A DNA stretch of 44,047 nucleotides from a bacterium (GTDB taxonomy: Bacteria; Patescibacteriota; Patescibacteriia; Patescibacteriales; GWC2-42-12): positions 65,687 through 109,733 of the forward strand of contig JAUSEG010000011.1 of NCBI GenBank assembly GCA_030650415.1, read 5' to 3'. Below the pieces are notes generated by a model. The model saw only the letters and a program-made list of their open reading frames with translations, had not been told where the DNA came from and made no database searches. The position numbers were made by a program, and so were the translations under genes. Shown here one piece after another: positions 1,552-44,047 of the stretch (position 1 is the stretch's first letter; each line of letters starts with the position of its first letter).

Positions 1552-1570
1552 AATCAAATTTATCTTTTAA

Positions 1571-2248
1571 TTATTTTAAACTTTGCCCTCCGCAATTAAA
1601 TAAAAAGTCAATTATTGACAGGTTGGGAATAAAGGGCTCAAATTGCTGATGATAAACCGGATGAGTGAAGTCGGAAAATTTATGATCAATCCTGTTTATT
1701 TTAAATTTATCTTCCTTAATATATTGTCTACCGCCCGGACCAGACAAAAAAGTATCAGCCTTAAGCTCTTTGCACATATTTATTATCATTTCATTTTTTC
1801 GACCATTAATATTATAGTCGGAGCTTTTGTAAATAGGTATTTGAATGCCGAGCTCTTTAAATAAATAACGTATTATTGTTTCATTCAAATCAACTAATCT
1901 TTCCCATTTTTGGGAATATATTTTTTCAAAAAAATCTTTATATTTACTAAAAAAGAGCGCGTTTTTATAGCTATAATAAATGCTTTTCCAGTGCTTTTTA
2001 CCCCAGTATCTGGAATTATCTATCATCACCTCATTTATCTTTTGAAAGCCCTTGCCCTTGGTACGGATTGGCACGGTAAGCCAAATCCAACCATTTTCAC
2101 CTGGCCCGGTTCTAATTTTATTTCTGTTCTGAAAACTCCACTCTAGGAATTGCACATGATCTACAAAAATAAATTTATCAGCTTTTTTAACTTTATAAAA
2201 AAAACCAAGATAGGGTAGATATTCGGGTTGGTGAGCGACAAGTATCAT
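1571..2248 (-). CDS. WbqC-like family protein
   Basis: The 225-residue protein starts with the hallmark of the WbqC family: HQPEYLPYLGFF near the N-terminus, then FVDHVQFLEWSFQNRNKI. Family members sit in O-antigen, capsule and nonulosonic acid clusters, but I know of no settled biochemical role. Start ATG at 2248. It lies between neuB (18 bp gap) and neuC (19 bp gap) on the same strand, so it is almost surely cotranscribed with them. Locus B has no counterpart, so it is not strictly needed for the core pathway. Confidence 0.85.
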   Translation of the reverse strand: MILVAHQPEYLPYLGFFYKVKKADKFIFVDHVQFLEWSFQNRNKIRTGPGENGWIWLTVPIRTKGKGFQKINEVMIDNSRYWGKKHWKSIYYSYKNALFFSKYKDFFEKIYSQKWERLVDLNETIIRYLFKELGIQIPIYKSSDYNINGRKNEMIINMCKELKADTFLSGPGGRQYIKEDKFKINRIDHKFSDFTHPVYHQQFEPFIPNLSIIDFLFNCGGQSLK

Positions 2249-2266
2249 AAATTTAATATTTAAGAG

Positions 2267-3319
2267 CTAGCTCATCATTTCCCAGGTAATGATTGCGCCG
2301 CTTTTAATATTTTTAATTATTTTTCTGCCTACAACCTTGTCAACTTTTACCGGCGAAATGCCCGTACCGGGTCGTAACATAATCAAATCGTCAGAAGAAA
2401 TAATCGCCCCCGTCGCAATATCTTTTTTCGCCACAATGCTTTTCCTACCCGAAATTTTTGAATTCGCCTCTTCTGCGGTACATTTTTTTTTAAAACTTCC
2501 CAACATAACTTCCGCCTGCCTAATCGATTTGATGAAACTTTCTAATTCAACCGGATCAAGCGACGCTTTATGGTCCGGACCGATCATGTCTTTATCTAAA
2601 GTAAAATGTTTTTCAACTATGCAAGCGCCTAAAGCCACGGCCAATAGGCTAGCCACGCTTCCCTTGCTATGATCAGAATATCCCGTTAAGACGCCAAATT
2701 CAGTCTGAATAGTTTTTATAGCGAGCAAATTTAAATTCGCCGGAGAGGCGGGATAATTAGAGGTGCAATGAAGAACAATTAAGTCCCGACACCCCTCCTT
2801 CTTTATAATATTAACAGCCGCTCCTACCTCCTCTAAAGTTGACATACCGCTGGAGACAATCATGGGCTTTCCCTTTGCGGCCAAATGCCGTAAAAATGGC
2901 AAATTATCAATATCGCCTGAAGAAGTTTTATAGGCCGGCAGCCCGACTGTCTCTAAAAAATCCGCATCTTTTTCCGAAAATGGGGTTGATAAAAAAATAG
3001 TTTTCTTTTTTTCGCAATAATCGCGCAAAGCGCGAAAATCGCTGCCACTTAATTCTAAACGTTTTAGCATGGCATATTGCGTTTCAATTTTACCGATATT
3101 TTTAGATTGATATGCGGCCTGCTTGGCCGTTTCGGTTACTAACAATTCCGGGGTAAAAGTTTGAAATTTAATCGCATCAGCACCGCATTTTATGGCTACA
3201 TCTATCAGTTTTTTGGCCAATTTAATATCGCCATTGTGATTCACGCCGGCTTCAGCGATAATAAAAACCGGCCGTTTTTCACCTATAAATTTATTTCCTA
3301 TTTTAATATTTTTTACCAT
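2267..3319 (-). CDS. neuB: NeuB-type nonulosonic acid (sialic acid) synthase, locus A copy
   Basis: NeuB enzymes condense phosphoenolpyruvate with ManNAc or a diamino analogue to make the nine-carbon sugar acid. The 350 residues show the TIM-barrel NeuB domain (IIAEAGVNHNGD, DAIKFQTF, FLSTPFSEKDAD, KTSSGDIDNLPFL, VLHCTSNYP, GYSDHSKG, EKHFTLDK, GPDHKASLDP). A C-terminal SAF/antifreeze-like domain follows from about residue 285 (GRKSIVAKKDI, RPGTGISP, GRKI). Start ATG at 3319. The stop of the upstream oxidoreductase is one base away, which implies tight cotranscription. All signature blocks are intact. Whether the product is Neu5Ac-, legionaminic- or pseudaminic-like cannot be told by eye. Confidence 0.93.
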   Translation of the reverse strand: MVKNIKIGNKFIGEKRPVFIIAEAGVNHNGDIKLAKKLIDVAIKCGADAIKFQTFTPELLVTETAKQAAYQSKNIGKIETQYAMLKRLELSGSDFRALRDYCEKKKTIFLSTPFSEKDADFLETVGLPAYKTSSGDIDNLPFLRHLAAKGKPMIVSSGMSTLEEVGAAVNIIKKEGCRDLIVLHCTSNYPASPANLNLLAIKTIQTEFGVLTGYSDHSKGSVASLLAVALGACIVEKHFTLDKDMIGPDHKASLDPVELESFIKSIRQAEVMLGSFKKKCTAEEANSKISGRKSIVAKKDIATGAIISSDDLIMLRPGTGISPVKVDKVVGRKIIKNIKSGAIITWEMMS

Positions 3320-3320
3320 A

Positions 3321-4337
3321 TTATAATAAAACCCTTTTACCTGTCCGATTACTTTTTTCCAAGGCGTACAAAGTTCTTAAAAGATGCCAACTATCGGCAA
3401 TGGTGTGCGGATATTTAATTTTTTTATCAACCGCCAGTAAAAATACCTTTATTTCATCATTATACATCTCTTCTTCATTAATATAACCGATTTCCGGGTG
3501 ACCTTTAGGAACCGCGATAATTTTAGTCGTTTTAGATTTTGCATTATATAATTTAATCACCGAATCAAACCTCTCCCAGTCCAAGACTCCTTCGCTACCT
3601 AAAACTCGTAATGTTCTATATGGTTTTCGGGAAATAGCATCGATAATTACACTGCCTAAAATTTCATTTTGATATTTTAAATCAGCTAAAATAATATCAG
3701 CAGCGTTCATTTCCAGGTCGGAAATTTTACTAATAAACCCACTGATTTCCCTGGGCTTAGAATTAAAAAGCCAATTAAGCCAAATCAATTCAAAGGGAAA
3801 TATTTCCCGGCAAGCGCCAGTGGCCTTTTTTGAAAAATATACTTTCCGGTAATCCTCGTAAGGATGCCAATCGGGCAAATATTGGCCGGCATGATATTGA
3901 AAGGCCAAAATTTTTCCCACTTTTCCTTTTTCCAAAATATCTTTTATCATCTTAATCGGCCGATAGAAACGCAAAGTGCAGGAAGGAGCCTTAACGATGG
4001 ATAAATTTTTATTTTTTAAAATTTCTTCATAGCCGTCATCGCTGGTCGGATGCTCGACAAAAAAATGCTTTTTTAGCTTTAACGCCATTCTGATATAATC
4101 GCCGTGCTGATCCGGAGGAGTGGAAATTATCATAATGTCAAAGCTTTCTTTGGCCAGGCTCTTTAAATCATTCGCAATTTTGATGCCGTATTTATTTTTA
4201 GCCTCGCGCCTCCTGTCGGAGCTGATATCATAACCGATAATCCGATATTGGCCGTGAAAATGCAGGTTGCGGATGCGCCTTTTGCCCATTGACCCGAGGC
4301 CGACTATTAAAAATTTTTTTATATTTTTCAAAGGCAT
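3321..4337 (-). CDS. Gfo/Idh/MocA oxidoreductase with EHP in place of EKP, locus A copy
   Basis: An N-terminal Rossmann nucleotide-binding motif (LIVGLGSMGKRRIRNL, residues 10-25) is followed by a Gfo/Idh/MocA C-terminal domain; 338 residues, normal length. The family's EKP motif, whose lysine is catalytic in sugar dehydrogenases, reads EHP here (Glu95-His96-Pro97). The locus B homologue has the same change, so it is ancestral and not a sequencing error. Start ATG at 4337. The gene sits between neuA and neuB, as in many nonulosonic acid clusters. Likely an NAD(P)-dependent redox step on the nonulosonic acid or its precursor, but the altered motif makes a plain dehydrogenase assignment unsafe. 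Confidence 0.85.
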   Translation of the reverse strand: MPLKNIKKFLIVGLGSMGKRRIRNLHFHGQYRIIGYDISSDRRREAKNKYGIKIANDLKSLAKESFDIMIISTPPDQHGDYIRMALKLKKHFFVEHPTSDDGYEEILKNKNLSIVKAPSCTLRFYRPIKMIKDILEKGKVGKILAFQYHAGQYLPDWHPYEDYRKVYFSKKATGACREIFPFELIWLNWLFNSKPREISGFISKISDLEMNAADIILADLKYQNEILGSVIIDAISRKPYRTLRVLGSEGVLDWERFDSVIKLYNAKSKTTKIIAVPKGHPEIGYINEEEMYNDEIKVFLLAVDKKIKYPHTIADSWHLLRTLYALEKSNRTGKRVLL

Positions 4338-4342
4338 AAAAA

Positions 4343-5068
4343 TTATTTAAATTTCTTAATTTTTTGGGCTAAGTTTTTCTTATTTTTATAAATCAACTCG
4401 GCCAAAAACCAATCTTCTGGGATATCTAAATCAATGGAGCGCCATTTAGGACAAACCACAGCCTTAGTTTTCTTCGTTATATCGGTTTTTTCCTTAAGCA
4501 GGGCTTCAGTCTTAACCAGGTAAACAAAACAGCCATTAAGAATAAAGCCGGCCGGCCAGTCTTGCACGTTGTCAGACTGTTTTTTCGGGCGATTAACCAA
4601 CAGCAAATCATTTTCCCGGCTTAAATTATATAGACGCGGATGAGTCGGGCAGACGGTTAGTACGCTGTCGGCGTTCGACTGGCGCATTAACCGCCAACAC
4701 TTTTTGATATCTTCCAACTCTCGCAAGGGCGAAGTAGTCTGTAATATTAAAACGTAGTCTGATTTGTATTGCTGCTCTTTTATTAATTTTTTTACAGTAT
4801 ATAGTATGCTGTCTATCGCCTGGGAATGATCTTGGGCTAAATAGGCTGGCCTCAACCATGGCACTTCCGCGCCGTATTTTTTAGCAATCGCTGCTATCTT
4901 TGGCGAATCCGTATCAACAATAACCCGATCAACGAAAGATAAGGCCAGAGCCTGTTCAATCGTGTAAGCGACAAGCGGTTTACCTAAAAAATCCTTAATA
5001 TTTTTATTAGGAATTCTGCTTGAACCGCCGCGAGCCGGTATATAAGCTAATACTTTTTCTTTTGACAT
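4343..5068 (-). CDS. neuA: NeuA-type CMP-nonulosonic acid cytidylyltransferase, locus A copy
   Basis: The enzyme activates the nonulosonic acid with CTP for glycosyl transfer. The 241 residues carry the nucleotide-binding loop IPARGGSSRIPNKN (10-23), then VDTDSPKIA and LQTTSPLR, all typical of CMP-NeuAc synthetases. The loop has Ser17 where the locus B copy and the usual pattern (GSK) have Lys; Arg13 and Lys22 are kept. A TTG 30 bp upstream (5098) would extend the frame into the preceding gene; ATG at 5068 matches the length and N-terminus of the locus B paralogue (MIKKKVLVVIPARAG) and is chosen. The stop of the upstream GT2 is 13 bp away and Gfo/Idh starts 5 bp downstream. Confidence 0.92.
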   Translation of the reverse strand: MSKEKVLAYIPARGGSSRIPNKNIKDFLGKPLVAYTIEQALALSFVDRVIVDTDSPKIAAIAKKYGAEVPWLRPAYLAQDHSQAIDSILYTVKKLIKEQQYKSDYVLILQTTSPLRELEDIKKCWRLMRQSNADSVLTVCPTHPRLYNLSRENDLLLVNRPKKQSDNVQDWPAGFILNGCFVYLVKTEALLKEKTDITKKTKAVVCPKWRSIDLDIPEDWFLAELIYKNKKNLAQKIKKFK

Positions 5069-5081
5069 ATGTAAATTTAAA

Positions 5082-5978
5082 TTATTCCTTAAATTCAAAA
5101 TGTTTTAACTTTTCTTCTGATCTGGATTTATAAGCCTCTAACCCAATCGCCTGCTCGCCCGGGCGCGGCAGATACAAGGCTAGCTGTTTCTCTAAAAAAC
5201 CCATGCGCGCGCCGGCCGAAAATATGCGAATGGCAAGATCTGTATCATTTACCCGATTCCAACTCTTACGCCAGCAATTAATATTATATTTTATAAATTT
5301 TAAATAAGACCGATAAAGCCAGGTGCAAGACCCGCCGATCTTAGGGTTGTCCCCTTCAACCGGCTTATTGGTTATATTATAATAAGGCCCCTGGGCCCTG
5401 GCGCCATCAACCACGCAACGCTCGCCATTTTTCTCTACGATATGGCGGGCGGAAACAAATTCATAATTCCCTAATTGGGCGAACCTTAAAAGCTCCTCAA
5501 GATGATCACCCGTCCAGACATCATCGTCGTCCAAGCGCGCTATCCATTTTCCTCTTACCATGGTCAGCGCCTGATTGGCCGCGACCACCGGTCCGGCCAG
5601 CCAATGGTTTTCTACTGTCGGCGGGTAACGATAACCGCGTTTGGGCAAATTATAATATCTTATCCTGGGATCTTTAATTTTAGAAACCAGCGCCTCGGTA
5701 TGGTCAGTGCAATGATCGCCTAAAATAATTAACTCAAAATTTTTATAAGTTTGCGCCAAAACCGACGGCAAGGATCTCTGAATTAATATCTCCGCTCGAT
5801 TGTAGGTGGGGATATAAACGCTAATTAAAGGAAACTTATCTTCTTGGTTATATAAATTTTCGTATCTTAAACGTGAAATTTTAAGCTTAACCGGCTCAAA
5901 TAAAGAATAACGCAAATCATTACCACCGCTAATTAGCTTATTAATTATCGTCCGTTTTTGCGGCACATTTTTTTCCAT
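5082..5978 (-). CDS. GT2 family (GT-A fold) glycosyltransferase, locus A copy
   Basis: The 298-residue protein has the GT2 start ISVYIPTYNRAEILIQRSLPSVLAQTY (residues about 52-78 region), LIILGDHCTD and the metal/nucleotide-binding acidic motif ARLDDDDVW. The C-terminal half keeps a CWRKSWNR segment also found in the locus B paralogue (33169-34014), which is similar along its whole length. No membrane segment is seen, so it should act in the cytoplasm on a lipid- or protein-linked acceptor. Start ATG at 5978. It heads the neuA-Idh-neuB-neuC set in both loci, so its donor or acceptor is probably tied to the nonulosonic acid glycan. Confidence 0.88.
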   Translation of the reverse strand: MEKNVPQKRTIINKLISGGNDLRYSLFEPVKLKISRLRYENLYNQEDKFPLISVYIPTYNRAEILIQRSLPSVLAQTYKNFELIILGDHCTDHTEALVSKIKDPRIRYYNLPKRGYRYPPTVENHWLAGPVVAANQALTMVRGKWIARLDDDDVWTGDHLEELLRFAQLGNYEFVSARHIVEKNGERCVVDGARAQGPYYNITNKPVEGDNPKIGGSCTWLYRSYLKFIKYNINCWRKSWNRVNDTDLAIRIFSAGARMGFLEKQLALYLPRPGEQAIGLEAYKSRSEEKLKHFEFKE

Positions 5979-5998
5979 ATTTTTTATGAATTATAACG

Positions 5999-8059
5999 TT
6001 ATTCTGTTCTTAAACGCCTAAGCCTTTGTGGCCCCCAAATTATCATCTTTTCATAAAACACATAATTGGAGAAACTCGAAAATTCATCAATTTTAGTATT
6101 GAACAAATCAAATTGATCTAAATAGTAAATTCTTTTAACCGGACGGCTAAAACGGTAATTCTTAAAACTGCCTTTAAAGTCATCTGCTCGCCATTTTTCA
6201 TAATCATATATTTCCTCAACCGCGAATTCTTTTCTAATGTCTTTTTTTGTCAATTTTCCTGCTTTTTTATCCTGAATTATCCGGCATTGTTTATCCTGTC
6301 TGATCACTTCTTTTAAATTTTCGGAGTCTTCACAGGACAATTTATTTTTTACGCCATCAATAATTATCTCGGCGATTTCATCCAGCGCGCCCGTATCTTC
6401 AAACAGGCAATAACCGGAAAAGCCGTGATCCAACTTAAAAAAAGTTCCCTGATCTGCCAGCAGATCTTTCCATTGCTTATCGTCACCTGTAATTTTTTCC
6501 ATTAATTCTTTCTCGTTGTCGAACAGTTCGACTTCGGAATAAGCTTTATACTGCTTGAATAAATTATTTAATCGTGGGTAGCGCACATAATTTTCCATGA
6601 TAAGATTAAAAATTTCCGTCATCTTTATCCCTCGTGAGAATAAAAAAGTTACGCTATCGGAAAACGCTTCCTTACCTACCAGCAGCCAGGTTACCAGACC
6701 GAAACTTCTGATGGTTAAATAATCATTGGAACCGAAACTGTTATTTTGCCAGGCGATTTCTTCGGACTCAATAATGCGAATCGGCTTTCGTCCGCTGATT
6801 AAATTGTATTCGCCGTAGCGGCCATTCAACGGCCTGAATTTTGTTTTATACCCGTACTTTTCCCTGTCCACTTCGGCGATTACCGTACCCGGCAATAGTT
6901 TTAAAATATAAACTGCCGGGTTAGTAACGCCCAAAGATAAAATTTTATCAACCGTCTCCATAAAAGACTTTAAAGTCTCGCCCGGCAAGCCAAAAATCGT
7001 GTCAACTTCCGTCGGTAAGTGGTATGGTTTGGCAATGGCGACTATTTCTCTGATGGTTTCAACCGGTATATTTTTTCTTTTGCAGTTATTAAGCACCGGT
7101 TCGGTTAAAGTCTGCAGGGCGAAATAAAAAGAACCCATCATCCGCGCCGTATTGATCATCATCTCAATTGAAGTTTTTGTTTTTTGTTTGGTGGTCGCGC
7201 TGACGATCAGCCGGGGGAAACCGGTCTTTTTATAAAGATCAAGCATAAACGAACTAATCCTTAAATCGCGTTCGCCCATAATGCCGAAATTTGTGTCGGC
7301 AATTTCAACTTCTTTTGAGGTTGAATGTTTTGAAATATATTGCAGCTCATCATAGACCGTTTGCTCATTTTTTATGCTCAGAGGCATAAAAGTGTTCGCG
7401 CCACCGCAACAAAAAGTGCATTGATGCGGACAACCGCGCGCCGTTTCCAGCGTCGCCACAAAACCGGCATGCAAAAATTTATCTAAATATCCGGTAAGGT
7501 AAGGCGACGGGAAAGTATTGATATCGATTCCTTCGGAAATAATTTTTCCCCTAATTACCTTGCCGGTTCCATCTAAACGAAAGGCGCAACCGTCAAGATT
7601 TTCTTTAAATATTGAGACTGGGCTTGCCTGACTCTCCAAAATTCTGTTTATAATATTCAAAAACGACTTTTCTCCCTGGTCAATAACTATTATATCTAGG
7701 CTGAGGTGAGTTTCTAAAATTTTCTTAAAATGATCCGAGTTCCTGGCGATACTGGCGCCGCCGATAACCGTGATTGTCTGCTGGCTGATTATTTTACAAG
7801 CCTCAATCATTTTAAAAGTTAAATTGGTATTCCACATAAATAACGAACAGCCCAGAATATCTGGCGGCCGACGTCTAATCTCTCTGATCAACTCATCGGG
7901 GTCTTTGAACAAAAAAATTTCTATTGAATCGCTCAGCTCCTTTTTGCAGAAACTCGCGATTGAACCAATGCCTAAGGGCACGTGGAAACGATTGCCTGGA
8001 CGAAAATGATCCAGATCGGCCAAATAGATTATCAACTTTTTTTCTGATGTTTTATCCAT
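5999..8059 (-). CDS. cobalamin-binding-domain type radical SAM enzyme
   Basis: The 686-residue protein has an N-terminal B12-binding-like Rossmann domain (about 1-160, with IGGASIARNSDHF near the end). The radical SAM core follows, with CPHQCTFC supplying the three [4Fe-4S] cysteines Cys210, Cys214 and Cys217, and a later IFGLPGETLKSF motif typical of this class. The C-terminal 250 residues match nothing I recognise. No DxHxxG cobalamin motif is seen; many members of this class lack it. Such enzymes often methylate unactivated carbons or modify glycan and lipid precursors. Start ATG at 8059; TylF-type gene upstream (5 bp), GT2 downstream (20 bp). Substrate unknown. Confidence 0.85.
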   Translation of the reverse strand: MDKTSEKKLIIYLADLDHFRPGNRFHVPLGIGSIASFCKKELSDSIEIFLFKDPDELIREIRRRPPDILGCSLFMWNTNLTFKMIEACKIISQQTITVIGGASIARNSDHFKKILETHLSLDIIVIDQGEKSFLNIINRILESQASPVSIFKENLDGCAFRLDGTGKVIRGKIISEGIDINTFPSPYLTGYLDKFLHAGFVATLETARGCPHQCTFCCGGANTFMPLSIKNEQTVYDELQYISKHSTSKEVEIADTNFGIMGERDLRISSFMLDLYKKTGFPRLIVSATTKQKTKTSIEMMINTARMMGSFYFALQTLTEPVLNNCKRKNIPVETIREIVAIAKPYHLPTEVDTIFGLPGETLKSFMETVDKILSLGVTNPAVYILKLLPGTVIAEVDREKYGYKTKFRPLNGRYGEYNLISGRKPIRIIESEEIAWQNNSFGSNDYLTIRSFGLVTWLLVGKEAFSDSVTFLFSRGIKMTEIFNLIMENYVRYPRLNNLFKQYKAYSEVELFDNEKELMEKITGDDKQWKDLLADQGTFFKLDHGFSGYCLFEDTGALDEIAEIIIDGVKNKLSCEDSENLKEVIRQDKQCRIIQDKKAGKLTKKDIRKEFAVEEIYDYEKWRADDFKGSFKNYRFSRPVKRIYYLDQFDLFNTKIDEFSSFSNYVFYEKMIIWGPQRLRRLRTE

Positions 8060-11876: not shown

Positions 11877-13403
11877 ATGAAAATTTGCTTTATGCTGCAA
11901 CGCCGCTTTGCTTATATCGGACACACCTTAGCCAGCCAATTAAATCAAAAATACGGTATTGAGAATTTTTGCGGCTACGTAGCAATGCGAAAAAGTTTTA
12001 ATTTTATTAAAAATAAAAAATCGCCGCGCTTCTCGGAGCTCATCTTGGACGAGGATATCCACCGGCGTTATAAAACTGAAATAATCGATTGTGACTTTAT
12101 TAAAAAATTAGAAAAGGACCACGGCTTACCCAATCTCTGGCCTTATATTGAACTCGACAGAATTATCCGCTCTAACCAACACATCCGAGTTTTTCCCTAC
12201 GATACGCCCGCCTACTCCCATGAAGAGATGATAAAAATAGTTCAAGTTAACGCCAAGGCGATTATAAAATTTCTGGACGAGAGCAAGCCCGATGTCTTGA
12301 TCACCCCGGTTATCGCCTCAATCGGCAGCTTGATGCTTTACCAAATGGCTAAAAAAAGAAATATAAAGACGCTGATTATTCATTCCGCTCGCATAGGTAT
12401 TAAACACATGATAAACGAAGATATTATTAACTACAGCTCCGCCATTAATTTATTCGATAAACTCCAAACTAATAAAATTGACTATCCCGAAGAACAGGCA
12501 AAGGCCATCGCCCTTTTAGAAAAATTCCGCCGACAGCTTCAACCTTACAGTTTAGCGGATTTACCAAAATTCAGACCAATAAATCGCCGTCGACAATTTA
12601 TTTTTTTAACGCCCAAAAAACTGATTTGGTCGATACGCTGGCACTATAGGATAATAATCTGCTATTTAACTGACCCGTATCGAGACGATTACACCAATAT
12701 TAACCCATTTCTGCAAATTTGGGATAATCTTAAAAAGAAAATTAGAGTCTTAATCGGTTACGGAGATCTTTGCGATGAAATCGTACCGAACGAAGACTTT
12801 GCGTACTTCCCTATCCACCAGGAGCCGGAAAATGCTACCTTGCTTTATGCCCCATTTTATAAAGATCAACTTTGGCTGATAAAGCAAATGGCGCGCTCTC
12901 TGCCATTAAATTTTAAACTTTATCTTAAAGAACATCCGACCATGCACGGCCACCGCTTAAGACGTTTTTATAAAGAACTTAAAAAAATTCCCAATATTAA
13001 GCTAATCAAGCCGGAGATTGAAAGTTCGTCTTTAATAATAAACGCTAAATTAATTTTTACTATCAGCGGCACGACCGGCTGGGAAGCTGTCCAGTTAAAA
13101 AAACCGATAGTTGTCTTCAGCGATGTCTTCTATAGCTACTTACCTATGGTTAAAAAATGTGTTGCGATTGAGCAATTACCCTATCTGGTTAAAGACCAGT
13201 TGGAAAATTTTAAACATGACGAAATAGCCTTAATTAATTTTTTAACAGCCATTCTACACGAAAGTGTTGATGCTGACTTGGCCCAGCTTTGGGATATAGA
13301 AGGCGGCGGCCAAATTGAAAATAAAAAAGACCAACTAACGCCTTTAACCGATTTAATAGCTAAAAGATTAAATTTAAAGCCATTGAAACAGACAAATCTA
13401 TGA
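11877..13403 (+). CDS. capsule-polysaccharide-type GT-B glycosyltransferase, locus A copy
   Basis: The 508-residue protein resembles the capsule polysaccharide biosynthesis family (KpsC/KpsS-like, GT-B fold). It has a KICFMLQRRFAYIGH start, a middle DVLITPVIASIGSLMLYQMAKKR helix region, then LYLKEHPTMHGHR, LIKPE and TISGTTGWEAVQLKKPIVVF near the C-terminus, where this fold binds the nucleotide sugar. Start ATG at 11877. Its stop overlaps the next start by ATGA (13400-13403). A homologue of almost equal length (34011-35540) has the same start and end motifs and likewise overlaps a GT2 gene. Transfer of the CMP-nonulosonic acid is an attractive role but not shown by sequence. Confidence 0.78.
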   Translation: MKICFMLQRRFAYIGHTLASQLNQKYGIENFCGYVAMRKSFNFIKNKKSPRFSELILDEDIHRRYKTEIIDCDFIKKLEKDHGLPNLWPYIELDRIIRSNQHIRVFPYDTPAYSHEEMIKIVQVNAKAIIKFLDESKPDVLITPVIASIGSLMLYQMAKKRNIKTLIIHSARIGIKHMINEDIINYSSAINLFDKLQTNKIDYPEEQAKAIALLEKFRRQLQPYSLADLPKFRPINRRRQFIFLTPKKLIWSIRWHYRIIICYLTDPYRDDYTNINPFLQIWDNLKKKIRVLIGYGDLCDEIVPNEDFAYFPIHQEPENATLLYAPFYKDQLWLIKQMARSLPLNFKLYLKEHPTMHGHRLRRFYKELKKIPNIKLIKPEIESSSLIINAKLIFTISGTTGWEAVQLKKPIVVFSDVFYSYLPMVKKCVAIEQLPYLVKDQLENFKHDEIALINFLTAILHESVDADLAQLWDIEGGGQIENKKDQLTPLTDLIAKRLNLKPLKQTNL

Positions 13404-15040
13404 TTGATGAAAAATCAGAAAAAATTGTCGTGGTCGGTTTTGGCTGGGTCGGACAGGCCAACGCACTGGCGCTCTCTAGAATGGGTTTTGAAGTTTTTTA
13501 TTATGACATTTTTACCCCCAAACATCACTATTCCGAAAAGTATCAAGCGCTTTACGAAAAAATAAAACCTCTAGAAACTCCTCTGCAAATTGACGGTTTA
13601 AACACCTGGTATATTGTTTGTATCGGCGATCGAGTAAGTGAAGACGGACATCAGGATATTTCCTTGATTGAAAAAGCCTTGATCTCCCTACGCCCCGCCA
13701 AAGGCCAAGTCGTCCTTCGCTCCACGGTTTTGCCTAAATACCTTAAACAACTTTCTTTTAATATTTATCTGCCGGAATTTCTTCATGAAATCAACGCCGT
13801 GGAAGAATGTTTAAACCCTTTTATTTTCGTCATCGGGGAAAGAAACAAGGCCGTTTATCCCGACTTTATCAAACAGTGGGAAAAAAGAGCCATAAAAATT
13901 TTTAAAGGCACGCCCGAAGAAGCGGCTCATATCAAATACCTTTCCAACGTTTGGAACGCCTTGCGCATCGCCTTTGTTAATGAATTCGGCGATGGTCTGG
14001 CTCTGCCGACAAATAAGGAACAGCGGGAAAAAATTGAGCGACTGATTGATTTCTTTTTTGAAAAAAAGAGCTATTTGCGCTACGGTAAAACCTTTGGCGG
14101 CCATTGCCTGCCCAAAGATACTCGAGCCTTTATGGCCTACAAAGAAGAAACCCGGCCATCGCCCTTATTGAGGGCGATTCATGAATCAAATAAGCAGCAT
14201 CAACTGGTTGAGACGGCTTATCCCCTGCCCCAGTGGTTTTCTGGCTGGGATTATGCCGCTTATGGCCGAGGCTTTACTCGCATATCTCGCCGTCTTTGGC
14301 AAAATTTAAATTCTATAAAAATCGTAAAAATAATCCGACGTCTTTTCGGGCCATTAATAAAATTGTTGGAAAAACTAGCTTCCAAAAAATCTTTGCCTCA
14401 ACTTAAAACCAGATGGGAAAAATTAGCCAAAGATAATCCTTATTATTATACCAACTCCGATACTAAATCACGCCAAAACGTAGACGAATTTGAATTGCGT
14501 CAAACTGGAAAAAATGATTATTTAAAATATGTGTCCAATGATGCGCTATTGCAGAAGACATTAGACGATTTTAAAGATAAAACCGTTTTGGAAATCGGCG
14601 CCGGTGTCGGACGCATGACTGAGTTTTTTTGCCAAAACTTCAACCTAGTCCATGGACTTGATATTTCTCCGTCGATGCTAGCCATCGCCCGAAGACGCTT
14701 AGCCGCTTACCCAAACGCTAATCTAATTGAAAGCGCAGGTAATACCATACCTTTACCGCCAGAAAAATTTGATCTAATTTTTTCTTACCTAGTATTCAAA
14801 TATTTACCGACTGAAAAATTAATTCTAGATTATTTCAAGGAAATGTCCAAGGCCTTAAAGCCGGGCGGTCTGGCTAAAATACAGCTGCGCACCGGCGCCT
14901 CACCTTATTTCTGGCAGTGGTACTGCGGAATTTCTCTTAACCCGGCTGAAGCGAAAAATTTAGCTAAAGCCGCCGGACTGGAAGTTTTAAAAACAGAAAT
15001 TGAAAATAATAAAAGCCTCTGGCTTTGGCTTAAAAAATAA
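13400..15040 (+). CDS. nucleotide-sugar dehydrogenase domain fused to a SAM methyltransferase
   Basis: The 546 residues join two unrelated enzymes. Residues 1-270 match the UDP-glucose/GDP-mannose dehydrogenase family: NAD site VVVGFGWVGQANALAL (9-24), RSTVLPKYL, YLPEFLHE, a helix with KYLSNVWNALRIAFVNE, and FGGHCLPKDTRAF with the catalytic Cys236. The C-terminal UDP-binding Rossmann domain is missing. A basic linker is followed from about residue 350 by a class I methyltransferase (motif I VLEIGAGVGRMTEFF near 395, then GLDISPSMLAIARRRL). An oxidation to a uronic acid coupled to methylation of the same or a neighbouring sugar is possible. The ATG overlaps the previous stop (ATGA). The methyltransferase tail has a relative cut off at the right window edge. 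Confidence 0.85.
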   Translation: MIDEKSEKIVVVGFGWVGQANALALSRMGFEVFYYDIFTPKHHYSEKYQALYEKIKPLETPLQIDGLNTWYIVCIGDRVSEDGHQDISLIEKALISLRPAKGQVVLRSTVLPKYLKQLSFNIYLPEFLHEINAVEECLNPFIFVIGERNKAVYPDFIKQWEKRAIKIFKGTPEEAAHIKYLSNVWNALRIAFVNEFGDGLALPTNKEQREKIERLIDFFFEKKSYLRYGKTFGGHCLPKDTRAFMAYKEETRPSPLLRAIHESNKQHQLVETAYPLPQWFSGWDYAAYGRGFTRISRRLWQNLNSIKIVKIIRRLFGPLIKLLEKLASKKSLPQLKTRWEKLAKDNPYYYTNSDTKSRQNVDEFELRQTGKNDYLKYVSNDALLQKTLDDFKDKTVLEIGAGVGRMTEFFCQNFNLVHGLDISPSMLAIARRRLAAYPNANLIESAGNTIPLPPEKFDLIFSYLVFKYLPTEKLILDYFKEMSKALKPGGLAKIQLRTGASPYFWQWYCGISLNPAEAKNLAKAAGLEVLKTEIENNKSLWLWLKK

Positions 15041-15043
15041 TTT

Positions 15044-15934
15044 ATGCCTGAAAAATTTGATTTAGAAAAACCAAATCAGGAAGACAAAAAAAATGTAATT
15101 GAACAATTAAGGTCGTTAACAGAGGAAAAGCTAAAAAATTTTTCCGATGGTCACGGTCTGGGCCATGTTTTAAAAGTTGCTGAATTAGCTAAACTGATAG
15201 CTCTAGGAGATGGTAAAAATGTTTTCAACGCAGAGGCGGCCGCTTTAACTCATGATTGGGGGCGGGCTGATGAAGCTAGCGATCCAAAGAAAAGAAAGCA
15301 CGCTGAACTATCTGCTATCGCGGCTCAAGCGCCTTATCGGCAGTTTTATGAACGAGGCCAAATCAATGCCATGCAATATGGCGAAATCATGAGAGCGGTT
15401 AAACGACATAGCTTAAATGAAAAAACTGCCAGGGAAACCCTGCCAATAATTCGAGATGCGGACAGATTAAGCCGTTTCGGCGCGGTCGGCATGTACCAAA
15501 ACACATTGGCCCTTAGTGAGATGGCCAATGTGCCTTTTTATCTTAAAGGTCGCCCGGTCATTAGAGAAGAAAACGCGCCGATTATGGGCAGAAAAGATAT
15601 GAAATGTAACGTCGATAATTTTAATTTTGTTTTAGACTGGCGAAAGATGATGGAGACTGAATCCGGGAAAAAGATAATGGCGATTCTTGAACCAAGTTGG
15701 CGCGCTTTTCTTGAACTGGTATCAAATCATCTGGAGACAAATGACAAAAATTTTTGGTTGGAGTATCTAAGGAGTCGTGCGGAAATTGTCCAAACTAATG
15801 TGGAATTATACAAAAAAGACCCGGAACACCGGCTAGCGACTTTTGACGATCAGCTGGAAATGCTAAAACAGACTGAAAACGTTTCAATTTTTTCCGAGGA
15901 AAAATTTCAAAAATATTTGTTGGAGCATAAATAA
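15044..15934 (+). CDS. HD-domain metal-dependent phosphohydrolase
   Basis: The 296-residue protein shows the HD set in order: His37 and His41 (GHGLGHVLKV), His70-Asp71 (ALTHDWGR), His86, His122 (VKRHSL) and Asp138/Asp140 (IIRDADRLSRFG). The spacing fits a soluble HD hydrolase acting on nucleotides or phosphoesters. The C-terminal 130 residues are helical and not recognised. It starts 3 bp after the fusion gene and is cotranscribed with glycan genes. A link to glycan synthesis, such as sugar-nucleotide turnover, is only inference; it could be a housekeeping passenger. Confidence 0.8.
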   Translation: MPEKFDLEKPNQEDKKNVIEQLRSLTEEKLKNFSDGHGLGHVLKVAELAKLIALGDGKNVFNAEAAALTHDWGRADEASDPKKRKHAELSAIAAQAPYRQFYERGQINAMQYGEIMRAVKRHSLNEKTARETLPIIRDADRLSRFGAVGMYQNTLALSEMANVPFYLKGRPVIREENAPIMGRKDMKCNVDNFNFVLDWRKMMETESGKKIMAILEPSWRAFLELVSNHLETNDKNFWLEYLRSRAEIVQTNVELYKKDPEHRLATFDDQLEMLKQTENVSIFSEEKFQKYLLEHK

Positions 15935-15954: not shown

Positions 15955-16956
15955 ATGAAAAAAATCCTCATCACCGGCGGAGCCGGATTTATCGGTTATC
16001 ATTTAGCCAAACATCTCTTAACCAACACTAAAAACCAGCTGGTTTTAGTAGACAATCTTCAGCGCGGTAAAATGGACGCTGACTTTAAAGAATTACTAAA
16101 AAATAAGCGAGTTCAATTTATTCAGGCTGATTTAACCAAGCCGGAATTTTATTCCACGCTGGATACAGATTTTAACCAGGTTTATCACTTGGCCGCGGTT
16201 AACCACACAAAATTATTTTACGAAATACCGCAGGAAGTTTTGCGCATTAACACCTTATCTCTTATTTATATCCTTGAATGGATCAGGGGTCTAAAGAAAA
16301 AACCCAAACTCTGTTTTACTTCTTCCAATGAAGCCTACGCCGGCGCTTTAGCCTCTTTTAATCAGCTGCCAATTCCCACTCCGGAAAATGTGCCTTTAGT
16401 TATCAGCGACACATACAACGCTCGCTGGTCCTACGCCGCCACCAAGCTGGTGGGCGAGCTCTTTGTCATCTTCTACGCCAAGGCCTATAATTTTCCGGCG
16501 GTGATTGTCCGGCCGCATAATTTTTACGGCCCGCGCGCCGGTTACGGCGGACATGTTATTCCGGATTTTTGCGAGAGAATAGCGGCTAAAGTTAACCCTT
16601 TCCCGATTTACGGCGCTGATGACACGCGCACTTTTTGCTATATTAGCGACGTGGTTTTAGCCATGCGAATGCTCATGGACTCGCCCAAAACCGACGGCCA
16701 GCCGATTGAAACCGTCCATATCGGTGCCAGCGATGAAATTACCATGGAAAAATTAGCCGACAAGATGTTTAGCGCTGCCGGCTGGAAGCCAAAAAAAATA
16801 ATCAGCCGGCCCTCGCCGGCGGGCAGCGTTAAACGCCGCTTAGCTGATATCGTCAAAATAAAAAAACTGGTTGGTTGGCAACCAGAAACTTCCTTAGAAA
16901 AGGGGTTAAAAACTACCTTTGAATGGTATAAAGAAAACCCTAAAAAATATTCCTAA
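15955..16956 (+). CDS. NAD-dependent sugar epimerase/dehydratase (extended SDR), locus A copy
   Basis: The 333-residue protein has GGAGFIG (8-14) for NAD, LVDNLQRG for the adenosine ribose, VYHLAAVN, SSNEAYAG and the catalytic Tyr160-x3-Lys164 (SYAATKLVGE). RPHNFYGPRAGYGGHVI and RTFCYISD follow. This is the NDP-sugar 4-epimerase / 4,6-dehydratase / decarboxylase group; the sugar cannot be fixed by eye. It ends the plus-strand operon. Its TAA shares bases with the TAG of the convergent GT4 gene. The paralogue at 42799-43803 is highly similar throughout. Confidence 0.88.
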   Translation: MKKILITGGAGFIGYHLAKHLLTNTKNQLVLVDNLQRGKMDADFKELLKNKRVQFIQADLTKPEFYSTLDTDFNQVYHLAAVNHTKLFYEIPQEVLRINTLSLIYILEWIRGLKKKPKLCFTSSNEAYAGALASFNQLPIPTPENVPLVISDTYNARWSYAATKLVGELFVIFYAKAYNFPAVIVRPHNFYGPRAGYGGHVIPDFCERIAAKVNPFPIYGADDTRTFCYISDVVLAMRMLMDSPKTDGQPIETVHIGASDEITMEKLADKMFSAAGWKPKKIISRPSPAGSVKRRLADIVKIKKLVGWQPETSLEKGLKTTFEWYKENPKKYS

Positions 16957-21191: not shown

Positions 21192-23033
21192 TTAATTTAC
21201 GGAATAAATAAATACTTTGCCATCATTAAATTGCTCAACTAACTTTAATCCCTGAAGCTGATTTTTTATATTATCTTTTAAAGGTCCTGAAGATAAAATA
21301 TAATCTAATTGATACTTTTTCAATAGTTGGGAAAAATCTTGTTTAACAAATTGCCGATAATCTTCGGGCAATTTTTCTAATCTTTTCGGCAGCTCGTTAT
21401 CGGTAAAATCAGGAAATTGTTTTAAATTATATTGACCGCTCCAATTAGAAAACAAATAACTGACCGCTTCGCCTTTATTATTCTTTAAATATTCTTCTAT
21501 ATTGTCGGCCGATACGCCTTTAAGGCGCAAAAGAACCAAATAATTAAAGAAGTCGCGATCAATTACTATTAGATTATAGGCCCAGTTTGAAGCATAAATA
21601 TTCGAATGAGTGAAAGCCGGGATGTAACCGTTTAAAATATCAATCTTGCTTTGATCATCAACCGCAACCAAAACCACACTATCTTTTTTCTGCTGATTGA
21701 GCCAATTAAAAACCGGTTTATACGCCTGCAAAGCTAAATTATAGTTATCCATTTGGCGGTATGTTCCGGCCTGAATAGCTATACCGAATATCACTGAAGA
21801 ACTAAAAATAATGGCGGAAATTAGAAGCCATAAATATTGGCTTTTTCCTTTAATAACATTATAGAGCAAAGTCATTGCGACAACCATGGCTAAAGGGATA
21901 GTGTATTGAACAAAATGAAACGGCCAAATAGTCATGCCGGTAACCACTTGCTCAGTAAACACCCAGAAGCTTCCCAGAAGCAAGGCTAAACAAAACAAAT
22001 TCCAATCTCGAACATTAGATAAATTAAATCGCCTAAAAAATTTCTGCCGGTCTTTAAAAAATAATTTTAATTTATTAATCAACCAAGGCGCGAACAATAT
22101 TAAGTAAAACAATAAAACGGCTAAAATCAATCGGTTGAATAAAGGGTAATGAGTGTTAAATAGCCCATTTTTTAAAACCGCTTCCTTATAAGACGGACTT
22201 TGGCTCGCAATAAAAGACATATACCAATAAGGCAATGATATTGTCAAAGCCCAAAATATCACCCAGAAAAAACTTTTTACTATTTCGAATTCTTTTTTTA
22301 TCAGATACATTAAAATCAAAACAGCTAAAACTGAAACCGCCACCCCCCAGCTAAAAAAATAACTAGCAATCATCAAAGCTAAAAACAGAGCTGAAAAAAA
22401 TATCATGATTTTTTTATACGCCGACTTCTTGATAATCAACCAAATACAGATTAAAAAAGAAAATAAAAAAATCGCTCCCAATATGGGATTAACCAACCTT
22501 GCCCAAATTAAAAATTTTCCGCCAATGGGAGATTGACCGGTTAAATAAAGCCATAGATTATGGTAATCTACCAAATCATAACCAAGTGTCACTAATACCG
22601 CCCCGGCAATTGCATTGAACTTATTGGAAATAAAATTCGAATTGATTGTTAATCTATAGATTAAATAATACACTAATAAAAAAAGTATAAATGGCAAAAT
22701 AAATCTGCTAGCTACTATAATATCTACCAGAGGAATACCAAGCAACAAGCTGGGGATCGCATAAAACATCTCCGCTGTCGGTGGCGTTAACGACATTTGA
22801 TCTTTATATTCATAAAAACCTACCGAACTTATTAAGGGATGGCCGTCTATAATTTCTTGTACCCTGGCTATATAAAAATCTTCGTTGGCCGTGGCCAACA
22901 TGGGAATTCCTTGATATTTATCACCTAAAGAAATTCTAAAAACAAAATAAGGGGTTATATAAATAATTCCTATTAAGGTGGCAAAGATGATGGCTATTTT
23001 GTGCTTTTTAATTATAGTAAATAATTTTGACAT
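21192..23033 (-). CDS. multi-pass membrane protein, GT-C-like glycosyltransferase candidate
   Basis: The 613-residue protein has a first membrane segment at about 13-32 and roughly ten more up to about residue 430, then a soluble C-terminal domain of about 180 residues. In the first outside loop, ANEDFYIARVQEII has an acidic pair where GT-C enzymes bind the lipid-phosphate sugar; this placement is inference. A TTG at 23051 would overlap the upstream stop, so ATG at 23033 is used. It lies 10 bp after the FkbM gene. It could instead be a polymerase or ligase for the glycan; I do not recognise a named family. Confidence 0.72.
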   Translation of the reverse strand: MSKLFTIIKKHKIAIIFATLIGIIYITPYFVFRISLGDKYQGIPMLATANEDFYIARVQEIIDGHPLISSVGFYEYKDQMSLTPPTAEMFYAIPSLLLGIPLVDIIVASRFILPFILFLLVYYLIYRLTINSNFISNKFNAIAGAVLVTLGYDLVDYHNLWLYLTGQSPIGGKFLIWARLVNPILGAIFLFSFLICIWLIIKKSAYKKIMIFFSALFLALMIASYFFSWGVAVSVLAVLILMYLIKKEFEIVKSFFWVIFWALTISLPYWYMSFIASQSPSYKEAVLKNGLFNTHYPLFNRLILAVLLFYLILFAPWLINKLKLFFKDRQKFFRRFNLSNVRDWNLFCLALLLGSFWVFTEQVVTGMTIWPFHFVQYTIPLAMVVAMTLLYNVIKGKSQYLWLLISAIIFSSSVIFGIAIQAGTYRQMDNYNLALQAYKPVFNWLNQQKKDSVVLVAVDDQSKIDILNGYIPAFTHSNIYASNWAYNLIVIDRDFFNYLVLLRLKGVSADNIEEYLKNNKGEAVSYLFSNWSGQYNLKQFPDFTDNELPKRLEKLPEDYRQFVKQDFSQLLKKYQLDYILSSGPLKDNIKNQLQGLKLVEQFNDGKVFIYSVN

Positions 23034-23043
23034 ATATAATAGA

Positions 23044-23943
23044 TTATTCAATCAGTTTTAAAAAAATTCCTTTTGCGCAATATAAATTTACAAATTGATT
23101 ATAAGCGCTTCCATTTGGATGAAATTTTGGGATAAATACTTCATAACTTTCTTTATTTATAGGCGTTATCAAAGAAAGTTTATTATTTGCTATTGCATAA
23201 ATACTAAAATTATTATTTTTGAATTGTTGCAAAACCGTAAGAGGATCTTTGCCCGCGGCTTTTATCCAGGCCGGTGCAAACTCTGTAACAATGGCCAAAT
23301 TTTTATTAATTTGCATGGTTTGTGCCATACCTGTTAAGGCCGCCGCCTCCCCGCCTTCAATATCAATTTTAATCACCTCGACGTTTGTTATGTTTTCTTG
23401 CGTTAAAACTGTATCAAGGGTGTTTGCTTGCACCGATATTTTTTGCATTTTAAAATTAAGCGGAGCGTTAGCTAGCGTGGTATGACAACCGGCTTTTTCC
23501 AGACAATGATAAAAATCAATAATACCGGCGTGGTCGCTTAATGCAAGTTGAAATATTTTAACATTCTCAAGATGCTGAGTATTTTTTTTTAACAAAAGAA
23601 AATTTTCCGGATCGGCTTCAAACGCCAAAACCATACCGCCGGAACCGACCATTTTTGAAAAAATTCTTGTATAATAACCGATATGCGCGCCAATATCCAC
23701 AACTATCATATCTTCTTTTATAATTTTTTTAAACACGGCGACCGTCTCCTTTTCATAGAGCTCCCAAAGCATATCAAGTTTCCATCGCCTTATATAATTA
23801 TTTGGAAAAGAATAACCTCGCAATCGACTGTAACAATCAGTTAGAGCATCAAGTACAAAATAAATTTTTTTATCAAGCCATGGCGAATTTATTGAATGGC
23901 GATATAATTTACGAAGATATGATACCAATGAAAATTTCAGCAT
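23044..23943 (-). CDS. FkbM-family methyltransferase
   Basis: The 299-residue protein has FkbM motifs: MIVVDIGAHIGYYTRIF (SAM motif I), LAFEADPENFLLLKKN, FQLALSDHAG and VIKIDIEGGEAAALTGM. The family O-methylates sugars, polyketides and similar small molecules. Start ATG at 23943, only 2 bp after the aminotransferase stop, so the two are coupled. Its substrate is presumably a hydroxyl of the same glycan. Confidence 0.87.
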   Translation of the reverse strand: MLKFSLVSYLRKLYRHSINSPWLDKKIYFVLDALTDCYSRLRGYSFPNNYIRRWKLDMLWELYEKETVAVFKKIIKEDMIVVDIGAHIGYYTRIFSKMVGSGGMVLAFEADPENFLLLKKNTQHLENVKIFQLALSDHAGIIDFYHCLEKAGCHTTLANAPLNFKMQKISVQANTLDTVLTQENITNVEVIKIDIEGGEAAALTGMAQTMQINKNLAIVTEFAPAWIKAAGKDPLTVLQQFKNNNFSIYAIANNKLSLITPINKESYEVFIPKFHPNGSAYNQFVNLYCAKGIFLKLIE

Positions 23944-26725: not shown

Positions 26726-26802
26726 GATTTATTGCTTAATATAACTGTTTTTCCGCCAGTTAAGTAGCAATAATAAAAAACCACCCAGGGAGTATCCAGA
26801 AG

Positions 26803-27852: not shown

Positions 27853-27894
27853 TGTATCGCTTATATAACATAGGATAAAAAGAAGAGTAACAAA

Positions 27895-27918
27895 AAGCCC
27901 CAATGCTTATCGGGGCTT
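27895..27918 (-). terminator. intrinsic terminator downstream of the GT-B gene
   Basis: On the minus strand AAGCCCC (27918-27912), a 10-nt loop and GGGGCTT (27901-27895) are followed by further T residues. The hairpin lies 16 bp beyond the stop at 27935 and in front of neuB. Confidence 0.8.
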
Positions 27919-27934
27919 AAATTGATTTATTTTT

Positions 27935-28993: not shown

Positions 28994-28999
28994 GACCCG

Positions 29000-29004
29000 C
29001 CTCC
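29000..29004 (-). promoter_or_regulatory. Shine-Dalgarno site deciding a TTG start
   Basis: GGAGG on the minus strand lies 6 nt before TTG (28993-28991). Most other starts in the window have no such motif, so this one is a strong argument for the TTG. Confidence 0.75.
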
Positions 29005-29145
29005 ATATATTGTTTTCAAATCAAATATAACTGTAAATATATTACAAAAAATCATATTTAATAGCAAACTTAAAACTGGCGGGCACGCCGCTTAACTATA
29101 TGAAAATATCCCCTATAAATAGCGTCCGGACGGACGATAACAGTT

Positions 29146-30854: not shown

Positions 30855-30903
30855 AACTAAAAGTATTGAACTTCGCCTGCGATTATATTTTAAAAATCAT
30901 CAA

Positions 30904-37845: not shown

Positions 37846-37846
37846 A

Positions 37847-42798: not shown

Positions 42799-43803
42799 TC
42801 ATTTTTTAGAAGGGTTCTTCAAATACCAATCATAAGTTCTCTTCAGCCCTTCTGCGAGCGATACTTCCGGCTTCCAACCGGTCAAAGACTGCAACTTAGA
42901 AACATCGGCCAAGCGCCGCTTTACGCTGCCCGGCGGACCGTTCTTTATATCCAATTCTTTCGGCTTCCAGCCGACAGCTTTGAACAGTTTTTCCGCCAGT
43001 TCCCGCATAGTAATCTCTTCAAAATCACCGATATGCACTGTTTCAATGGGCTGGCCGTCGGTTTTTGAAGAATCCATCAGCATCTGCATCGCCCGAACCG
43101 CGTCCGTAATATAACAAAATGTCCGCGTATCATCAGCTCCGTAAATCGGAAACGGGTCAACATGGGCGGCAATCCTCTCGCAAAAATCCGGAATCACATG
43201 ACCGCCATATCCGGCTCGCGGACCATAAAAATTATGCGGACGGACAATCAATGCGCGAAAATTGTGCATTTTCGCGTAATGAATCACGAAAAGTTCTCCG
43301 ACTAATTTAGTGGACGCGTAAGACCATCGGGCATTATACGGATCATCTATTACCAATGGCACTTTTTCCGGAGTCGGAATCGGCAATTGGCCGAAAGCGC
43401 TTAAAGCGCTTGCATAGGCCTCATTGGAAGAGGTAAAACAGAATTTGCCTTGCGGATTTTCTTTTCTAAACCATTCCAGCATATAAATAAGCGATAAGGT
43501 ATTGATCCGCAAAACTTCATGAGGAATCTCATAAAAAATTTTCGTGCCGTTAATGGCGGCCAAGTGATAAACCTGATCATAGCCATTTCCGAATTGAGAA
43601 TAAGCTGATAGATCAGTTAAATCCAAATTTAAAAATTTCACTCTCTTATCTTCAAGTAGTTCCTTAAAATCAGCATCCATTCTCCCCCGCCGAAGATTAT
43701 CAACCAAAGTCAACCGGACATCTTCACCATATTCCTTCAAAAGCTGTTTGGATAAAAAATATCCGATAAACCCCGCCCCACCGGTAATTAATATTTTTTT
43801 CAT
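42799..43803 (-). CDS. NAD-dependent sugar epimerase/dehydratase (extended SDR), locus B copy
   Basis: The 334-residue paralogue of 15955-16956 has GGAGFIGYFLSKQL, LVDNLRRGRMDADFKELL, VYHLAAINGTK, SSNEAYAS, catalytic SYASTKLVGE (Tyr-x3-Lys) and RPHNFYGPRAGYGGHVI. A start at 43833 would overlap the upstream gene; ATG at 43803 lies 5 bp after that stop and gives the same N-terminus as the paralogue. The order methyltransferase then SDR matches locus A (without the HD gene), but the pair lies in the opposite orientation. Confidence 0.9.
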   Translation of the reverse strand: MKKILITGGAGFIGYFLSKQLLKEYGEDVRLTLVDNLRRGRMDADFKELLEDKRVKFLNLDLTDLSAYSQFGNGYDQVYHLAAINGTKIFYEIPHEVLRINTLSLIYMLEWFRKENPQGKFCFTSSNEAYASALSAFGQLPIPTPEKVPLVIDDPYNARWSYASTKLVGELFVIHYAKMHNFRALIVRPHNFYGPRAGYGGHVIPDFCERIAAHVDPFPIYGADDTRTFCYITDAVRAMQMLMDSSKTDGQPIETVHIGDFEEITMRELAEKLFKAVGWKPKELDIKNGPPGSVKRRLADVSKLQSLTGWKPEVSLAEGLKRTYDWYLKNPSKK

Positions 43804-43808
43804 AATTA

Positions 43809-44047
43809 TTATTTTTTTTCTAAAGTCAGCCAAAGATTTTTAAGTCCTTCGATTTTTTGTTCAACTACAGAAAAACCGGCTTTCTTTGCCATTATTAGGG
43901 CGATTTCAGGGCTTACCGCCACGCCGTAATACCAATGCCATTTATAGGTGCCAAGGCCGGTGCGAAGATGAATTTTCGCAATTCCGTCCGGCTTCAAAAC
44001 TCTGTATATCTCATCTAAATAATCTTTGATCAGCTGTTCGCTGGGCA
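43809..44047 (-). CDS. C-terminal part of a SAM methyltransferase, cut by window edge
   Basis: The frame is open to the window end; about 78 residues are visible, with no start. The segment PSEQLIKDYLDEIYRVLKPD, then GIAKIHLRTG, WHWYYGVAVSP and LWLTLEKK, aligns with the last 78 residues of the 13400-15040 fusion protein (LPTEKLILDYFKEM, GLAKIQLRTG, LWLWLKK). It may therefore be the end of a second dehydrogenase-methyltransferase fusion, or of a stand-alone methyltransferase. It precedes the SDR epimerase by 5 bp. Confidence 0.75.
   Translation of the reverse strand, partial: PSEQLIKDYLDEIYRVLKPDGIAKIHLRTGLGTYKWHWYYGVAVSPEIALIMAKKAGFSVVEQKIEGLKNLWLTLEKK

Follow-up and report, generated by a model that had tools for sequence, protein, structure and literature searches.

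A two-domain sugar-nucleotide dehydrogenase fused to a class I methyltransferase in surface-glycan gene clusters of Patescibacteria

A 44,047-nucleotide stretch of a Patescibacteria genome (contig JAUSEG010000011.1, positions 65,687 to 109,733; hereafter the window) carries a gene (13400..15040, + strand) in which the first two domains of a sugar-nucleotide dehydrogenase are joined, in one chain of 546 residues, to a class I S-adenosylmethionine (SAM)-dependent methyltransferase. Enzymes of the UDP-glucose 6-dehydrogenase (UGD) family are treated as three-domain proteins, the third domain of which holds the nucleotide, and it is this domain that the fusion lacks. On balance, we consider it somewhat probable that the fusion is a bifunctional sugar-nucleotide 6-dehydrogenase/methyltransferase of surface-polysaccharide precursor synthesis. 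All support for this assignment comes from sequences and structural models, and the organisms are uncultured metagenome-assembled genomes (MAGs).

One Reading Frame Joins Two Dehydrogenase Domains to a Methyltransferase

The fusion gene is a single intact open reading frame (ORF) with an ATG start. Its first domain (residues about 6-170; 13415..13909, +), matched by PF03721 at residues 8-37, is a nicotinamide adenine dinucleotide (NAD)-binding Rossmann domain with a GxGxxG motif at residues 13-18 and Asp36. The central domain (residues about 172-282; 13913..14245, +), matched by PF00984 at residues 174-265, contains Lys179, Asn183, Asn194, Cys236, Asp240, and Asn264 by residue mapping. Cys236 (codon 14105..14107, +), the counterpart of catalytic Cys260 in S. 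pyogenes UGD, lies within the sequence FGGHCLPKD. A linker (residues about 283-345; 14246..14434, +) follows at the place where the family's UDP-binding domain, PF03720, would begin. The C-terminal domain (residues about 346-546; 14435..15037, +) matches methyltransferase families at residues 396-490 (PF13649, E 2e-18) and carries motif I, LEIGAGVGRMTE, at residues 397-408 and the acidic residue Asp421. Judged by fold and motifs, this half is a complete class I SAM-dependent methyltransferase, for which transfer to a sugar is putative. Pfam searches found no PF03720 in the fusion protein, and the NCBIfam nucleotide sugar dehydrogenase model is covered only at positions 2-296 of 413.

The AlphaFold2 model of the protein, built on a 50-row alignment in which the catalytic columns were checked, has a mean predicted local distance difference test (pLDDT) score of 82 and a predicted template modeling score of 0.59. 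Many UGDs match residues 7-282 of the model with their first two domains (VIA-align Z about 22; 3.0-3.5 Å over about 265-275 residues). From about residue 338/345 to 546 the match is to class I methyltransferases, among them the sugar N-methyltransferase TylM1 (VIA-align Z about 19.7). The linker (pLDDT about 35-78) is modeled with moderate confidence as three helices, residues 285-305, 307-327, and 332-345, after which the methyltransferase begins. A first-pass annotation of this DNA had proposed that the catalytic cysteine and NAD site are present, that the UDP-binding domain is absent, and that a complete class I methyltransferase is attached; the profile searches and the model agree with it on each point. 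It had also named a normal UDP-binding domain between residues 270 and 390 as the result that would speak against it, and the model contains no Rossmann-like domain there, with residues 273-294 and 351-359 predicted at low confidence.

The same fusion, which the annotation had suggested seeking elsewhere, is present in six other MAGs at 43-66% identity. These copies include one on JAUSGE010000014.1 (66%; same contig as G006), one in a Candidatus Magasanikbacteria MAG (JAHFIE010000069.1, 53%), one in genome G195 (43%), others in G799 and G723, and one in G778 that is divided by contig ends. Because the fusion is intact in several assemblies, a frameshift or mis-assembly is ruled out as its origin. 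Among 381 genomes drawn from the class, six hold the fusion, and by their family labels the fusion-bearing genomes span at least four families of this one Patescibacteria class. The seven fusion dehydrogenase domains form one clade (ultrafast bootstrap 94). The tree has 256 columns and weak deep nodes, and what we claim from it is limited to the fusions being one clade apart from the main clade of two-domain dehydrogenases described below; the fusions did not form a single group with the stand-alone two-domain proteins, and their placement relative to the dehydrogenases of loci L027 and L085 is weakly supported (74). The fusion is old and conserved.

The Dehydrogenase Half Retains Its Catalytic Residues

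A published analysis of 229 members of the family identified 18 invariant residues with assigned roles, among them Thr83, Glu201, and Lys320 (PMC4794789). The fusion retains 15 of the 18, and its catalytic Lys179, Asn183, Cys236, and Asp240 (equivalent to Lys204, Asn208, Cys260, and Asp264) are kept in all seven fusions, as are Gly13, Gly15, and Gly18 of the GxGxxG motif. In the methyltransferase half, the motif I core LEIGAGVGR (residues 397-405) and Asp421 are invariant across the fusions and their phage homologs. The dehydrogenase half could in principle be a noncatalytic domain that senses NAD or acts as a scaffold for the methyltransferase, as might be read from the loss of three invariant residues (Thr83, Glu201, and Lys320). 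However, the residues directly involved in catalysis persist in seven of seven fusions spanning about 43-66% identity, and sequence conservation within the fusion family is no lower in the dehydrogenase half than in the methyltransferase half. We find a noncatalytic role very unlikely.

Two-Domain Dehydrogenases Without a Methyltransferase Are Common

The fusion is not alone in lacking the UDP-binding domain. In the order to which the window genome belongs, 56 of 111 genomes have the central dehydrogenase domain and only 12 have PF03720; 53 of the 69 dehydrogenase loci in that order have an open frame of 360 residues or less and are stand-alone two-domain proteins. The catalytic residues are kept throughout these proteins. 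Relatives are also common in phages: among the best 80 IMG/VR matches, 67 of 76 complete genes encode 256-304 residues, a proportion that is not a census, the query having been the two-domain profile itself. Thus, the two-domain form is the majority in the order and common in phages. In the window genome (1.29 Mb, 98.7% complete) no PF03720 was found anywhere, and the identical search was positive in 14 of 14 control genomes, which rules out for this genome that another protein provides the UDP-binding domain in trans.

The genomic context of the two-domain proteins points to a function. The window genome encodes a second such dehydrogenase (locus L072, 5441-6295), followed by an epimerase-like short-chain dehydrogenase/reductase (SDR) gene and then by a UDP-glucuronate decarboxylase (UXS)-like gene, for which the best solved match is a UDP-glucuronate decarboxylase (E about 2e-119). 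Of the 31 strong UXS homologs in the order, 20 have a two-domain dehydrogenase no more than 3.4 kb away, an arrangement found in 20 genomes. Furthermore, 21 genomes, the window genome among them, have UXS and no PF03720, and 19 of the 21 carry a two-domain dehydrogenase. In genome G070 a two-domain dehydrogenase and an SDR share a single 619-residue ORF (locus L071, 3764-5623, −); the nearest solved relatives of this SDR are 5u4q, deposited as a dTDP-glucose 4,6-dehydratase, and the 6zl6 group, which we take to be UDP-glucuronate 4-epimerase. The simplest reading of this context is that the two-domain proteins make UDP-glucuronate.

Other arrangements were also seen. In locus L027 (3071-6810, −) a two-domain dehydrogenase of a separate lineage adjoins a 936-residue protein that resembles, by reading, a GT2 polymer synthase with LysM and right-handed β-helix segments and is reminiscent of alginate synthase/epimerase. 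UXS homologs occur in open frames of 523-550 residues, about 200 more than usual, in G008:C7, G025:C19, G031:C94, G040:C33, G060:C2, G072:C26, and G075:C1, and these are possible further fusions. Two three-domain dehydrogenases of about 570 residues (L073, 3963-5669, +; L066, 143-1855, −) match the family from about residue 134-146 and so have an N-terminal extension of about 130 residues.

The Methyltransferase Appears to Be a Separable Module and an SDR Is the Constant Partner

Downstream of the fusion in the window lies an SDR gene (15955..16956, +) of the epimerase/dehydratase/decarboxylase superfamily. Homologs of this SDR occur in 8 of the 381 class genomes, including all 6 that have the fusion (hypergeometric P about 7e-12, without phylogenetic correction). 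In every copy seen, the SDR is downstream of the fusion and within 3 kb, directly or after one or two genes. Locus L187 (G580) is uninformative, as its contig stops at the SDR. The catalytic motif of the SDR is SSNEAY...YxxxK, and it shares Glu and Arg positions with UXS, which is only a lead. No NCBIfam model matched it above cut-off, and its nearest solved structures mix epimerases, dehydratases, and decarboxylases, such that no named reaction can be assigned. In genome G282 the dehydrogenase upstream of the partner SDR stops without a methyltransferase domain. Hence the core of the system seems to be a dehydrogenase-SDR pair, to which the methyltransferase was added as a module.

The methyltransferase, in turn, occurs outside the fusion. 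A relative is encoded as a separate complete protein in locus L044, with no dehydrogenase and next to genes that by reading are polysaccharide-deacetylase-like and glycosyltransferase-like. In phage L051 (IMGVR_UViG_3300023296_000504) a two-domain dehydrogenase gene (4956-5825) overlaps a methyltransferase gene (5815-6435) by 11 bp; L052 is the same DNA (99.96%), and in phage L050 the two genes are about 1.2 kb apart. Because the L050 and L051 dehydrogenases belong to the main two-domain clade and not to the fusion clade, the link between dehydrogenase and methyltransferase seems to have arisen at least twice. In the phage modules of L050-L052, glycosyltransferase-like genes and those for the two-domain dehydrogenase and the methyltransferase come after a Ser/Pro-rich repeat protein (SPSASPSVS...). 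These modules are candidates for a system that decorates a virion protein with sugars.

These observations bear on one of two alternatives offered by the first-pass annotation, that the methyltransferase, standing in the place of the lost UDP-binding domain, helps to bind the substrate; it would then be a structural element and not a second catalyst. The methyltransferase does occupy the position in the chain that the UDP-binding domain would have. However, the two-domain relatives have nothing in that place, every fusion keeps the SAM motif, the methyltransferase exists alone or as an adjacent separate gene, and the SDR of G282 follows a dehydrogenase that lacks it. Because two-domain dehydrogenases are common and many adjoin UDP-glucuronate decarboxylase or epimerase genes, there is no need to see the methyltransferase as a substitute for the missing domain. 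Thus, the architecture proposed by the annotation is real and the replacement is not borne out; a substrate-binding role of this kind is most improbable. By the same token, with two-domain proteins common in unfused form, the fusion does not explain the domain loss.

A weaker coupling is also conceivable, in which both activities are real but belong to separate branches of one surface-glycan cluster and were joined for coexpression only. The clusters are indeed rich in sugar-modifying genes, and the L044 methyltransferase relative has no dehydrogenase beside it, but the dehydrogenase-methyltransferase link is found twice, with different dehydrogenase clades (the patescibacterial fusion, and the overlapping genes of L051 with the nearby genes of L050). 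We judge such a fusion of convenience to be quite unlikely.

Residue Losses Specific to the Fusion Point to a Changed Substrate

Several features weigh against the assignment of the fusion as a sugar-nucleotide dehydrogenase/methyltransferase. Lys320 is absent, as is the third domain that carries it. Thr83, a contact of the nicotinamide ribose of NAD (PMC4794789), is present in 70 of the 71 sequences used for comparison and is replaced by Asp77 in all seven fusions. Likewise, Glu201, kept in 57 of the 71, is replaced by Ala/Ser176 in seven of seven. Arg244 crosses the dimer to reach the sugar (PMC4794789) and has a human counterpart in Arg260 (PMC3184952); the corresponding loop of the fusions has no arginine at that place, and Arg244 is probably lost. 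Loss of Thr83 and of the Arg244-type residue, with Glu201 changed to Ala/Ser throughout, is confined to the fusion clade. In addition, this clade sits on a long stem branch (1.58 substitutions per site) outside the main two-domain clade, and because of this distance the function of the main clade is not simply transferable to it. Five of six fusion genomes tested also have three-domain dehydrogenases, so that the fusion is not the only uronate source of those five genomes. The methyltransferase sequence gives no indication of its acceptor, and a literature search of mostly open-access papers found no biochemistry for any two-domain member.

The loss of Thr83, Glu201, and probably Arg244 suggests altered substrate recognition, and because of these fusion-specific substitutions the substrate is likely to be other than plain UDP-glucose. 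The different acceptor that the first-pass annotation had offered as its other alternative is mildly favored by the same changes. Alternatively, the dehydrogenase half would have turned from nucleotide sugars to the oxidation of a substrate with no nucleotide to hold, for example a sugar linked to a lipid, the end of a glycan, or a sugar phosphate; the missing domain and lost sugar contacts would reflect that shift. Besides the absent domain, the three fusion-specific losses, the long stem branch, and the coexistence of normal three-domain enzymes in fusion genomes are consistent with such a change. However, the two-domain relatives adjoin UXS and epimerase genes, which use UDP-glucuronate, and the fusion is paired with an SDR of the NDP-sugar superfamily. 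We therefore regard a substrate without a nucleotide as unlikely, and a nucleotide sugar remains the substrate that we favor.

Gene Neighborhood of the Fusion

The loci considered here all lie within surface-glycan gene clusters. In the window, a Capsule_synth-like glycosyltransferase gene (11877..13403, +) precedes the fusion, its stop codon overlapping the fusion start (ATGA). An HD-domain phosphohydrolase-like gene (15044..15934, +), not found at this place in other loci, follows after 3 bases and separates the fusion from the SDR. From this spacing and order, the four genes look like one transcription unit. At the far end of the window, the C-terminal 77 residues of another methyltransferase of this type (43812..44047, −; 49% identity to residues 470-546) are cut by the contig end, and directly downstream of this tail is a second copy of the partner SDR (42799..43797, −), 71% identical to the first. 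The window genome may therefore hold a second fusion. Several fusion loci also share genes for a TylC3-like C-methyltransferase, a DegT aminotransferase, a hexapeptide acyltransferase, and a GT4 glycosyltransferase; these shared genes make a complex surface sugar the probable end product.

Two further segments of the window (394-5098 and 25568-33091) each contain genes for a NeuB-type synthase, a UDP-GlcNAc 2-epimerase family protein, a Gfo/Idh/MocA protein, and a cytidylyltransferase, giving this small genome two pathways to nonulosonic acids. Three ORFs of the window, at 21192-23051, 27935-28993, and 36715-37950 (−), encode 619, 352, and 411 residues and have no Pfam match at E 1e-5; relatives of the 619-residue ORF (21192-23051) are found in other fusion loci (L032 and L173).

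Discussion

The fusion combines features of several known systems. Its NAD-binding and central domains are like those of UGDs (S. pyogenes, 1dli/1dlj; Cj1441, 7kws; P. gingivalis, 3gg2) and of GDP-mannose dehydrogenase (1mfz), with which it shares the catalytic Cys, Lys, Asn, and Asp and the Glu141 and Glu145 positions. In contrast to these enzymes, it has no UDP-binding domain, no Lys320, and no Arg244 equivalent, Thr83 is Asp, Glu201 is Ala/Ser, Tyr10 is Trp, and a methyltransferase is attached. The stand-alone two-domain dehydrogenases (PHROG 9148, "UDP-glucose dehydrogenase"; Campylobacter phage CP220 gp019, 256 residues) have likewise lost the third domain and have the same catalytic residues, but they lack the methyltransferase and are a distinct clade in the tree; the main two-domain clade keeps Thr83, mostly Glu201, and the DPRIG arginine. 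The L071 protein of G070 is also a two-domain dehydrogenase joined to a pathway partner, although there the partner is an epimerase-type SDR and the dehydrogenase belongs to the main clade. The L051 phage pair consists of a two-domain dehydrogenase and a methyltransferase 36-37% identical to that of the fusion, but as separate polypeptides and with a main-clade dehydrogenase. Class I methyltransferases of the TylM1 and phosphoethanolamine types have the same fold as the C-terminal half at only 15-23% sequence identity. The first-pass annotation knew the architecture from no characterized enzyme, and our full-text literature search, which covered mostly open-access papers and is thus weak evidence of novelty, found no description of it and nothing relevant on two-domain UGDs.

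If the fusion is a sugar-nucleotide dehydrogenase/methyltransferase, its N-terminal half would oxidize an activated sugar at C6, from alcohol to carboxylate, in two NAD-dependent steps by way of a thioester on Cys236, and would do so without a UDP-binding domain, as the large uncharacterized two-domain group appears to do. The C-terminal half would separately methylate, in a SAM-dependent reaction, either what the dehydrogenase makes or an intermediate further along the same route, and the downstream SDR would act on the same intermediate. The product would probably be a methylated acidic sugar for the cell surface. A bolder proposal, which we hold tentatively as a lesser possibility, is that the UDP-binding domain is dispensable across a widespread class of Patescibacteria and phage enzymes, of which the fusion would be a derived member with a new substrate, coupling C6 oxidation and methylation to make an undescribed methylated uronate nucleotide.

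The third domain is missing from most such genes in one order and from most of the phage hits examined, which raises the question of how, or whether, these dehydrogenases bind the nucleotide. The fusion and its co-occurring SDR define a small unexplored surface-sugar pathway in uncultured bacteria with reduced genomes.

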